A program made the position numbers and the translations under genes. DNA of 5,786 bases, taken from NCBI GenBank assembly GCA_016188625.1, contig JACPHL010000088.1, forward strand, positions 1 to 5,786, given 5' to 3'. Below the pieces are notes generated by a model. That model searched no databases. It was not told where the DNA came from and was given only the letters and a program-made list of their open reading frames with translations. The stretch comes from Candidatus Rokuibacteriota bacterium (GTDB lineage: Bacteria; Methylomirabilota; Methylomirabilia; Rokubacteriales; JACPHL01). Below are positions 1-5,603 of the stretch, one piece after another. Each line of letters opens with the position of its first letter. Positions within the stretch are counted from its first letter, which is position 1.

Positions 1-138
1 CATCAGGATTACAGCGAGCAGACTGCCCAGGAGATCGATCAGGAAATCCGCCGGTTTGTCATGGAAGCTTACGCGCGAGCCAGCGAGCTGATCAAGTCCC
101 GGATCGACGCGCTTCACGCGCTCGCTGCCGCCCTCCTG
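1..138 (+). other. Misplaced FtsH C-terminal segment (patch 1)
   Basis: The 46 residues read in frame from base 1 (starting [13 protein letters not shown], ending LHALAAALL) align without gaps to the resident FtsH C-terminus at 619-756 (starting [13 protein letters not shown], ending LHRLARALL). They are clearly a different version of the same helices. They then run straight into [15 protein letters not shown], which in FtsH belongs to the AAA lid more than 200 residues before the C-terminus. The likely crossover is around GCCCTCCTGG (130-139), a string also present at 748-757. About 11 of the first 43 codons end in A or T, against only a handful in the 230 codons that follow, so the donor has different codon use. 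Confidence 0.75.
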
Positions 139-2623: not shown

Positions 2624-3000
2624 TCCGCTGGCGCCGCCTCATCGATCACTGGCAGCTGAAGCTCCTCTCCGTGGCCTTCGCCGTCGGCCTCTGGCTGTTC
2701 GTGGTCTCGGAGGACAAGGTGGAGACGGTCTTCGCCGCCCCCATCGAGCTCCGGGAGATCCCAATGGGGCTTGAGATCGCCCGGATGGAGACCGAGACCG
2801 TGGAGACGTCCGTCATGAAGACCGGGCGCCTCTTGGTCGTGGACGACGGCCCTCAGGCGGGAGGCTTCACGGCAGAGTTGGTTGCGCGGGTCTGCGAAAG
2901 TATTGATCTCGGCGCGACCCCCTCCCGGATCCGGGTCGTGCTGCGGCCGGTGGGGAGCGCCGGACCCGGGCCGCCCGATGCGGCGGGCCCCGGGGCCTGA
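2620..3000 (+). CDS. cdaR: CdaR/YbbR-family protein, truncated and chimeric
   Basis: CdaR proteins are membrane-anchored with several extracytoplasmic YbbR repeats and regulate the adjacent CdaA. The GTG 2620 start overlaps the cdaA stop and has GGAG at 2611-2614. Residues 1-53 look like a genuine YbbR head: HWQLKLLSVAFAVGLWLFVV is the single membrane helix, followed by SEDKVE and the first strand APIELREIPMGLEI. From about residue 58 to 96 the protein instead reads like a 2-oxoacid dehydrogenase E1-beta C-terminal domain (TSVMKTGRLLVVDDG, then GGFTAELVARVCE). From about residue 100, TPSRIRVVLRP resembles the end of a YbbR repeat, with a Gly/Pro tail. Total length is 126 residues, whereas family members with several repeats are usually about 300 or more. 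The frame stays open, but a working CdaR is unlikely. glmM begins 3 bp after the stop. The family call rests on the head and the context. Confidence 0.8.
   Translation: MIRWRRLIDHWQLKLLSVAFAVGLWLFVVSEDKVETVFAAPIELREIPMGLEIARMETETVETSVMKTGRLLVVDDGPQAGGFTAELVARVCESIDLGATPSRIRVVLRPVGSAGPGPPDAAGPGA
2791..2916 (+). other. E1-beta-like (transketolase C-terminal) patch inside cdaR (patch 2)
   Basis: Residues 58-96 of the frame match the pattern of pyruvate/branched-chain 2-oxoacid dehydrogenase E1 beta subunits, in which a DxETI..SVxKTGRLLVVDE segment is followed by GGFxAEIAARVxE. Here it reads TETVETSVMKTGRLLVVDD, then GGFTAELVARVCE. The segment shows a cluster of A/T-ending codons (between 2842 and 2910: CCT, GGA, GCA, GTT, GAA, AGT, ATT, GAT, that is 8 of about 22), unlike the flanking DNA. 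The left edge is blurred, since CCA and CTT codons already appear at 2761-2775. The right edge lies near 2911-2917, where GC-rich coding resumes. LLVVDD alone could suggest a response regulator, but the following GGF.AEL.ARV does not. Confidence 0.65.
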
Positions 3001-3003
3001 ACC

Positions 3004-4368
3004 ATGGGGCGACTGTTCGGGACCGACGGCGTCCGGGGCGTCGCCAACGCCCCGCCCCTGACCCCCGAGCTGGCGTACCGGCTCGGCCGGGTGACCGCCG
3101 CCGTCCTCGCGGAACGGCGCGCCAGCGCGGGGCGGCCGGGGCTGCTGGTGGGGCGTGACACGCGCCTGTCGGGCCCGCTCCTCGAGGCGGCCCTCCTCGC
3201 CGGCATCATGTCCACCGGGGTGGACGGGCTCACGGTCGGGGTGCTCCCGACCCCCGGGATCGCGTGCCTCACCCGGCGGCTCGGCGCCATCGGGGGAGCC
3301 GTCATCTCCGCCTCGCACAACCCGTTCGAGGACAACGGGATCAAGTTCTTCTCCGCGGACGGGGGGAAGCTTCCGGACGCCTGGGAGGAGGAGGTGGAGA
3401 CCCGGCTCGCCGAGGAGGCCGGTCCGCCTCGCCCCACCGGGGCCGCCATCGGGCGCCTCCGGCCGGTCCGGTCGGCCGAGACCCTCTATCTCGACACCGT
3501 CCGGGCGGCCTTCCCGGCCACCCTGGATCTCGGGGGGCTCCGCCTGGTCCTCGACTGCGCCCACGGGGCGACCTACCGGGTCGCCCCGCGCCTGTTCCGG
3601 GGGCTCGGGGCCGAGGTGACGACCCTCGGCGCGCGCCCCAACGGGACCAACATCAACGCCCGCTGCGGGGCCCTCCACCCCGAGGCGCTCCAGGCGCGGG
3701 TGCGGGCCGCGGGGGCGCACCTGGGGCTGGCCTTCGACGGGGACGGCGACCGCCTCATCACGGTGGACGAGAGCGGCGAGGTCCGGGACGGGGACTACCT
3801 CCTCGCCCTGCTCGGCCGTCACCTCCACGCCGAAGGCCTCCTCCGGGGCGGGTGCGTCGTCACCACCGCCATGGCCAACCTCGGGCTCGACCGCGCGCTG
3901 GCCGAGGCCGGGATCCGGACCGTCCGGACCCTGGTGGGCGACCGCTACGTGCTGGAGGAGATGCACCGGCTCGGGGTGAATCTCGGGGGGGAGCAGTCCG
4001 GACACCTCATCTTCCTCGACCACGCCCCCACCGGGGACGGGCTGATCTCCGCGCTGCAGCTCCTCCGCGTCATGCGGATGCGGGGGGCCTCCCTGGGCGA
4101 GCTCTCCCGCTGCCTCACGAAGTTCCCCCAGGTCCTGGTGAACGTCCCGGTCCGGGCCAAGCCGCCCCTGGCGAGCCTGCCCAGGCTCAGCGCGGCCGTG
4201 CGGGAGTGGGAGGCGAAGCTCGGGGATGCGGGCCGGATCCTCCTCCGGTATTCGGGGACCGAGCCCCTGGCGAGGATCATGGTCGAGGGCGAGGAGCAGA
4301 CGACGATCGAGACCATCGCCGGCGAGCTGGCGGCCGTGCTGCGGGCCGAGATGGACGAGACCCGATGA
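3004..4368 (+). CDS. glmM: Phosphoglucosamine mutase
   Basis: GlmM interconverts glucosamine-6-phosphate and glucosamine-1-phosphate, the step that leads to UDP-GlcNAc for peptidoglycan and lipopolysaccharide. It has 454 residues, full length for the family. Landmarks in order: N-terminal GTDGVRGVAN; GRDTRLSG; the phospho-serine loop SASHNPFEDNGIKFF with the catalytic Ser about residue 104; the metal loop DGDGDR at 245-250; the sugar-binding GGEQSGH at 328-334; and the phosphate-binding RYSGTEPLARIMVEG from 415. ATG 3004 lies 3 bp after the cdaR-like stop, and no strong Shine-Dalgarno is visible, so translation may be coupled. Its TGA overlaps the ATG of the lipoprotein gene (ATGA at 4365-4368). 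In Firmicutes GlmM is an established partner and inhibitor of CdaA, which fits the clustering. The gene appears intact and its codon use is uniform. Confidence 0.96.
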   Translation: MGRLFGTDGVRGVANAPPLTPELAYRLGRVTAAVLAERRASAGRPGLLVGRDTRLSGPLLEAALLAGIMSTGVDGLTVGVLPTPGIACLTRRLGAIGGAVISASHNPFEDNGIKFFSADGGKLPDAWEEEVETRLAEEAGPPRPTGAAIGRLRPVRSAETLYLDTVRAAFPATLDLGGLRLVLDCAHGATYRVAPRLFRGLGAEVTTLGARPNGTNINARCGALHPEALQARVRAAGAHLGLAFDGDGDRLITVDESGEVRDGDYLLALLGRHLHAEGLLRGGCVVTTAMANLGLDRALAEAGIRTVRTLVGDRYVLEEMHRLGVNLGGEQSGHLIFLDHAPTGDGLISALQLLRVMRMRGASLGELSRCLTKFPQVLVNVPVRAKPPLASLPRLSAAVREWEAKLGDAGRILLRYSGTEPLARIMVEGEEQTTIETIAGELAAVLRAEMDETR

Positions 4369-4817
4369 GCGGACCCTGGAGATCCCCCCGCGCATGGATC
4401 GTTTGGACGCTCCTCCTGCTCCTGGCCGGCTGCGGCGGCGGGGGAGGGGGCGGAGGGAGCCCGACCGCCTCGGCGAGCACCCAGGAGCTCGCCTTTCTCT
4501 TCCAGAACAATGCGCGGTTCAACAACGGACTCACGGTTCGCTGGCCGACCCTCCCCGTCCAGGTCCACACCGCCGGGATCGCCGGGGCAGAGAGCGAGGT
4601 CCAGAGCTGGACGGGCGCGACCGGGGGGGCGGTGACCTTCACCTTCATGGGGAGCCCGCCCGCGGAGGGGATCACTTTTATGCCCAACGCCGCGGGGAGC
4701 GACATCTGCGGGCTCTCGGTGGTGCAGTTCGACTCCGGCGGTCGGATCCTGAGCGCCCGGGCCGGCGGGAGCACCATGTACCGCATAGAATTCGTCTACC
4801 GGCCCCGCGGAGGATGA
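4365..4817 (+). CDS. Lipoprotein, metzincin/matrixin-like N-terminal part, 3' end replaced
   Basis: The first 23 residues form a lipoprotein signal peptide: MSGPWRSPR, a hydrophobic stretch, then LLAG followed by Cys23. Eight glycines after the Cys form a flexible tether. The body (LAFLFQNNARF, VRWPTLPVQVHTAGI, VQSWTGATGGAVTFTFMGSPPAEGITF) has the look of the N-terminal half of a secreted matrixin-type zinc protease: a WPxxPxxV strand and an E..V..W helix before a region where HExxHxxGxxH should follow. That motif is absent. After GGRILSA the frame enters a segment ending RIEFVYRPRGG and stops. The missing C-terminal half, with a Met-turn-like GLMDP, lies downstream at 4843-5031. The start overlaps the glmM stop (ATGA), so it is in the operon. 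The lipoprotein call is firm; the protease call is inference from pattern. As it stands the gene is probably non-functional. Confidence 0.75.
   Translation: MSGPWRSPRAWIVWTLLLLLAGCGGGGGGGGSPTASASTQELAFLFQNNARFNNGLTVRWPTLPVQVHTAGIAGAESEVQSWTGATGGAVTFTFMGSPPAEGITFMPNAAGSDICGLSVVQFDSGGRILSARAGGSTMYRIEFVYRPRGG
4753..4811 (+). repeat. 59-bp imperfect direct repeat, copy 1
   Basis: It matches 4964-5022 at 54 of 59 positions by hand comparison, without gaps, offset 211 bp. Both copies encode RAGG...RIEFVYRPRG, the C-terminal end of the lipoprotein. The divergence suggests two different alleles or paralogues rather than a fresh local duplication. Confidence 0.85.
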
Positions 4818-4849
4818 GGGTGGTTGTGGGAATCGGGATCGAGGGCTGA
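4814..4849 (+). pseudogene. Truncated start of a second acpS
   Basis: ATG 4814 overlaps the preceding TGA and encodes MRVVVGIGIEG, then a stop. This is the start of holo-ACP synthase (V-V-G-I-G-I-D), broken exactly where the catalytic Asp codon would be. An AGGA-like ribosome site precedes it. It is not a copy of the resident acpS start at 5214: the two differ by an extra codon and several synonymous changes. It must come from a homologous locus in which acpS directly overlaps the lipoprotein gene. Together with the upstream repeat it forms patch 3 (about 4753-4842). Confidence 0.7.
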
Positions 4850-5031
4850 TGGACCCCACGGGCGGGAACGGGGACATCACCGCCCCGGTCGCCAACATGA
4901 TCCGCCTCCTCTACTCCCTGCCGCCGGGGACGCCCGTGGCCGTGAGCCAGGTCGCGCGGGTCGGCGCCCGGGCCGGCGGGAACACCCTCTCCCGCATAGA
5001 ATTCGTGTACCGGCCCCGCGGATCGAGCTAG
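4849..5031 (+). pseudogene. C-terminal remnant of the metzincin-like lipoprotein
   Basis: The frame is open from ATG 4849 to TAG 5029-5031, 60 residues. Reading two codons further upstream gives GLMDPTGGNGD, which resembles the Met-turn that follows the HExxHxxGxxH helix in matrixins. It continues ITAPVANMIRLLYSLPPGTP and ends RAGGNTLSRIEFVYRPRGSS. This is best read as the true 3' end of the gene that starts at 4365, separated from it by patch 3. ATG 4849 is the Met-turn methionine and probably not a natural start, as no ribosome site precedes it. Expected but missing between the two parts: the zinc-binding helix, perhaps 30-50 residues. Confidence 0.65.
4964..5022 (+). repeat. 59-bp imperfect direct repeat, copy 2
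   Basis: It is the partner of 4753-4811 (54/59 identical) and encodes RAGGNTLSRIEFVYRPRG at the resident lipoprotein C-terminus. The sequences after the repeats diverge at once: copy 1 runs into an overlapping acpS start, while copy 2 runs into a TAG stop and the long palindrome. Confidence 0.85.
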
Positions 5032-5211
5032 GACGGGATTATTCGTGAATACCGCCAGCGGAGTCGGACGGGTGGCGCGCCGGGCGGGGCGCCCCACGCG
5101 GCGAGCCGGGGGACCCCACACCGGGCGGGGGTGGCGAGCCGAGTGGGGCTGCCCGGCGCGACAGGACCCGTCCGCCTCGCGGGAAGCCGTTCATGAGTAA
5201 TCGCGGCTAGG
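5027..5211. repeat. ~180-bp imperfect palindrome flanked by GCTAGG direct repeats
   Basis: The intergenic DNA between the lipoprotein stop and acpS folds on itself. The left arm (about 5034-5107) pairs with the right arm (about 5133-5205) at roughly three quarters of aligned positions by hand. Matching blocks, left arm against the reverse complement of the right arm, include GATTATTCGTGAA/GATTACTCATGAA, CGGACGGGT (exact), CGCGCCGGGC (exact) and GCCCCAC (exact). A ~25-base central loop is G/C rich. GCTAGG occurs at both ends (5027-5032 and 5206-5211). In the outer arm, three of four mismatches would be G-U pairs in + strand RNA. No protein is encoded. It could be a small non-autonomous mobile repeat, a REP-like element or an mRNA structure. 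Confidence 0.7.
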
Positions 5212-5213
5212 GT

Positions 5214-5603
5214 ATGGTAGTAGGCATCGGGATCGACCTGGTCGAGATCGCGCGGATCCGCCGGGCGCTCGACCGCTGGCAGGAGCGCTTCCTCCGGCGC
5301 GTCTTCACCCCGGGTGAGCTCGACTACTGCCTCCGGCGCCGGGATCCCGCCGAGCACCTGGCGGCGCGCTTCGCGGCCACGGAGGCCACCCTGAAGGCCC
5401 TCGGCACCGGGCTGTCGCTGGGGGTCCGTTGGCGGGAGATGGAGGTCCGGCGGGCGCGCGGCGAGCGCCCCAGCCTCGTCCTGACCGGCCGGGTGCGGGC
5501 CCTCGGCGCCTCGCGCGGGGTCCGGGCCCTCCACCTCTCGCTCACCCACGACGGCGACTACGCCATGGCCCAGGTCCTGGCCCTCGACGGGGAGGGCCCG
5601 TGA
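5214..5603 (+). CDS. acpS: Holo-[acyl-carrier-protein] synthase
   Basis: AcpS transfers 4'-phosphopantetheine from CoA to the serine of apo-ACP and so activates fatty-acid synthesis. It has 129 residues, the usual AcpS size. It starts [14 protein letters not shown] with the metal-binding Asp at residue 8. The second motif is [16 protein letters not shown], with Glu57 and Lys61 matching the known catalytic Glu and Lys. The C-terminal strand is [19 protein letters not shown]. The family's FAAKEA is FAATEA here (Thr56). ATG 5214 directly follows the palindrome. The only purine run (TAGGG, ending 2 bases before ATG) is too close for a normal ribosome site, so initiation may be weak or depend on the upstream structure. 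Its stop overlaps the next gene's GTG (GTGA at 5600-5603). Confidence 0.93.

Follow-up and report, generated by a model that had tools for sequence, protein, structure and literature searches.

A coding patch in place of the zinc-site segment of a metzincin-like lipoprotein gene of a draft metagenome-assembled genome, probably a local misassembly

Introduction

When the zinc-site segment of a gene is replaced by pieces of other genes, has the organism lost the segment, or has the assembly? The question is raised by a lipoprotein gene in the window, that is, the whole stretch of DNA that was analysed (5,786 nucleotides). The window is the complete contig 214 of a draft metagenome-assembled genome that comprises 344 contigs and 2.6 Mb, with an estimated completeness of 84%, and the genes on it are, in order, ftsH (part), folP, cdaA, cdaR, glmM, the lipoprotein gene, acpS and a glycosyltransferase gene (part). 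A first-pass annotation of the letters had proposed that the lipoprotein gene lost a metzincin active site to a patch carrying a second acpS start. For short-read metagenome assemblies, local errors of such a kind, and the wrong protein-coding genes in databases that result from them, have been documented (Chen et al. 2020, PMC7111523).

Results

Two ends of one lipoprotein gene

The locus contains the following pieces.

4365–4757, plus strand: lipoprotein gene, N-terminal piece, to GGRILSA (47–48% identity to the intact homologues of G003 and G002; profile positions 14–107)
4758–4842, plus strand: predicted foreign patch of about 85 nt, replacing about 102 nt that encode HExxHxxGFxxHT in relatives (delimited by the profile gap at 108–139, the frames and the junctions)
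4843–5031, plus strand: lipoprotein gene, C-terminal piece, from GLMDPTGG to RPRGSS (59% identity to the G002 homologue)

Three apparent frames cross this region, and they belong to a single gene, as the first-pass annotation had it: because the patch is 85 nt long, which is no multiple of three, it shifts the frame. The first frame starts at 4365, reaches the GGRILSA end at 4757 and then continues through RAGGSTMYRIEFVYRPRGG to a stop at 4815–4817. The second carries RMRVVVGIGIEG and stops at about 4849–4852 (the listed open reading frame, 4226–4849, includes the stop), and the third runs from GLMDPTGG at 4843 to the stop at 5029–5031. The left edge of the patch is uncertain within 4753–4757. 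On both flanks the coding signal is unbroken up to the patch edges, and the halves of the lipoprotein gene are therefore without decay.

The gene was compared with its counterparts in two relatives, G002 and G003, from the same taxonomic order as the window's organism; relatives in the order include Candidatus Rokuibacteriota. In both, a protein 47–48% identical to the N-terminal piece is encoded directly after glmM, as in the window. These proteins are uninterrupted, with HETGHAIGFLDHT or HEAGHSIGFLGHT between the part resembling the N-terminal piece and the part resembling the C-terminal piece, and HExxHxxGFxxHT falls within the roughly 34 residues that lie at the position of the window's patch. 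Two further homologues, from Deltaproteobacteria/Thermodesulfobacteriota records, likewise carry HExxH between their N-terminal and C-terminal parts in the same motif order, and the expectation that the two pieces would prove to be one protein with HExxH between them was borne out in all of these records. The intact relatives of the metzincin-like lipoprotein are located as follows.

L031, 5623–6180: intact metzincin-like lipoprotein
L032, 5539–6180: intact metzincin-like lipoprotein
L033, 2–571: intact metzincin-like lipoprotein

A profile built from the two intact homologues (G003 and G002) and run on this genome gave two matches, both on this contig, at 4479–4757 (model positions 14–107) and 4834–4977 (model positions 140–189). 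Together with the frames, this two-piece match confirmed the GGRILSA end and the GLMDPTGG resumption that had been proposed. Profile positions 108–139, including HExxH, are missing from the window gene, and with these 32 motif-bearing positions gone the gene as assembled does not contain the metzincin zinc site HExxHxxGxxH. Because relatives carry the HExxH segment between the matches to the two pieces, the alignments indicate that a central segment of about 34 residues (about 102 nt) is missing from the window gene, and that 4365–4757 and 4843–5031 are opposite ends of a single lipoprotein gene lying between glmM and acpS. In its own genome the profile search found no second intact copy of the gene, just the two pieces.

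The intact family

Judged by its motifs, the intact gene encodes a metzincin-like, predicted membrane-anchored lipoprotein with a protease-like character; the motifs of this predicted lipoprotein family are HExxHxxGFxxHT and a conserved GLMD. Members of the family share HExxHxxG plus a further His with the metzincins (matrixin M10, astacin M12A, reprolysin M12B and related Pfam families), and they likewise have a conserved downstream Met, that of GLMD, and their matches to several metzincin models are weak and lie below threshold. They differ in that the third His comes one residue later than in HExxHxxGxxH and in falling short of every Pfam and NCBIfam cut-off. The prediction of HExxHxxGxxH between the halves was right about an HExxH motif at that place in relatives, but not about the spacing of the third His, the motif being HExxHxxGFxxH.

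The best Pfam matches of the intact homologues are to metalloprotease families, at E values of 0.0065 and 0.017, far below the cut-off, and no NCBIfam model scored above its cut-off. A search of solved structures returned weak metzincin matches only, the best being Myroilysin (E 0.2), and a structure prediction of an intact homologue from three sequences had a mean pLDDT of 38, too poor to judge the fold. The intact homologues bring to light a metzincin-like lipoprotein family beside glmM that is covered by no Pfam or NCBIfam model.

Content and origin of the patch

The patch and the gene downstream can be resolved into three features.

4753–4817, plus strand: probable end of a sister lineage's lipoprotein gene (RAGGSTMYRIEFVYRPRGG and stop), by similarity to 4964–5022
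4820–4842, plus strand: putative beginning of another acpS, with a GTG start and the reading MVVGIGI, broken off within the conserved Asp codon
5214–5603, plus strand: the contig's own acpS, whole (Pfam ACPS, 2.1e-17; TIGR00516, 2.2e-27)

The patch begins as the end of a homologous lipoprotein gene, in agreement with the first-pass annotation: positions 4753–4811 match the gene's own tail at 4964–5022 at 54 of 59 bases (E 6.7e-18), far above chance, and over the compared stretch the patch tail departs from the native tail by one silent and three amino-acid changes. The stop codon of this lipoprotein end overlaps an ATG (4814). A second acpS start does follow and is cut inside the Asp codon, but it probably does not read MRVVVGIGI from that ATG; the GTG at 4820 is the more likely start, aligning as it does to the start of the contig's own acpS at 5214, and the two starts both read MVVGIGI with silent differences only. 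The whole patch looks like sequence of a sister lineage where acpS follows the lipoprotein gene directly and the spacer of about 180 bases found in this contig is absent. The words shared at the patch edges are short.

The window's own spacer before acpS, at 5034–5206, is a MITE-like intergenic repeat of about 170 bases with inverted ends (GATTATTCGTGAAT / TTCATGAGTAATC), and about a dozen or more other sites in the genome match it. The lineage of the patch seems to be without this repeat.

Further patches in ftsH and cdaR

Two other genes of the contig carry displaced coding fragments.

1–138, plus strand: divergent FtsH C-terminal part before the contig's own FtsH protease domain (overlap at 127–138), probably a second wrong join
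About 2788–2913, plus strand: predicted pyruvate dehydrogenase E1-beta piece, in frame inside cdaR (Transketolase_C, 1e-6; E1-beta matches)

Bases 4–138 match FtsH residues 536–580 at 49% identity, and bases 127–807 match residues 371–597 at 88%; the contig thus opens with a segment from the C-terminal part of another FtsH, attached to the protease domain of the contig's own FtsH. The left edge of the cdaR patch is uncertain within 2788–2817. CdaR is continuous in both G003 and G002, and FtsH is whole in G003, the sole relative read at ftsH.

Discussion

Misassembly as the preferred reading

We infer, with a probability of about 0.92, that the lipoprotein patch arose by local misassembly of this draft metagenome-assembled genome, and that the fault is one of assembly, not of the chromosome. 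This reading is favoured because three displaced coding fragments, of about 85–130 nt, sit in three of the eight genes of one 5.8-kb contig. Its basis is the single gene in relatives, the missing middle, a patch drawn from real coding sequence and the two additional patches. The segment has no place in the relatives' gene, whose homologues are uninterrupted at the same location, and it comes from elsewhere, consisting of the end of a homologous gene and the start of an acpS.

Several results were counted against misassembly. The source of the lipoprotein patch was not found among 60 genomes of the order (nor was it found in viral contigs), the ftsH and cdaR patches had no DNA match elsewhere in the organism's own genome, and proteins from other contigs, about 34 kb in all, were read by eye and suggested genes that are mostly whole. 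Apart from these results, a look for local duplications in other contigs gave no second case like the lipoprotein patch, only some paralogues and one duplication with a spacing of 81 bases. We do not claim an assembly fault that spreads through the whole genome.

Under the misassembly reading, the metzincin-like lipoprotein gene would most likely be whole in the organism, as one gene between glmM and acpS; the assembler presumably failed to cover its middle, the stretch of about 102 nt that holds the zinc site. A sister lineage present in the sample may then have supplied the roughly 85 nt that bridge the flanks, a step that we infer, and the bridge would be the end of that lineage's lipoprotein gene running straight into its acpS. 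The proposed loss of the active site accordingly stands for the window, where the HExxH segment is missing, but the evidence points to the assembly, not the organism, as what lost it. The case resembles those of Chen et al. 2020 (PMC7111523) in that a short non-native stretch of consensus breaks protein-coding genes and in that related lineages in one sample would be the source of the chimera. It differs in the route of diagnosis: their errors were recognized by imperfect read support, whereas the present one is proposed from sequence comparison.

Alternative readings

It is improbable that the patch records a real chromosomal event, in which DNA from a relative's lipoprotein–acpS junction recombined at very short homologies into the middle of the gene and left a pseudogene, with similar events in ftsH and cdaR. 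Such an origin would fit a patch that is genuinely coding and comes from a related lineage, as well as the shortness of the words shared at its edges; however, it needs three events within 5.8 kb, in genes that are whole in relatives, and the halves flanking the patch show no decay. Taken for the contig as a whole, the proposition that the arrangement is real, with short coding fragments of relatives having broken ftsH, cdaR and the lipoprotein gene at very short homologies within 5.8 kb, is very improbable. It is hardly credible that the N-terminal piece forms a short but complete lipoprotein ending naturally in RIEFVYRPRGG, with the downstream piece being either a small gene by itself or what remains of a duplicated copy: the first frame is open and its ending resembles a normal tail, but a homologue naturally ending at RIEFVYRPRGG without a metzincin core, which the first-pass annotation had named as the contrary case, was looked for and not found, the core lies between the pieces in every clear relative, and the acpS start and the ftsH and cdaR patches are left unexplained.

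Given misassembly as the preferred reading, the gene calls of this contig (the truncated lipoprotein, the cdaR that contains a transketolase piece and the rearranged FtsH) should not be taken as biology, nor should they stay in databases as real proteins.

Two observations were made on other contigs. In L045, at 14997–15145, a 68-base stretch is repeated 81 bases on with 98.5% identity, at a gene boundary. In L034, at 3820–3840, a large Lhr-like helicase gene changes its coding frame, which may reflect a frameshift or a further assembly error.
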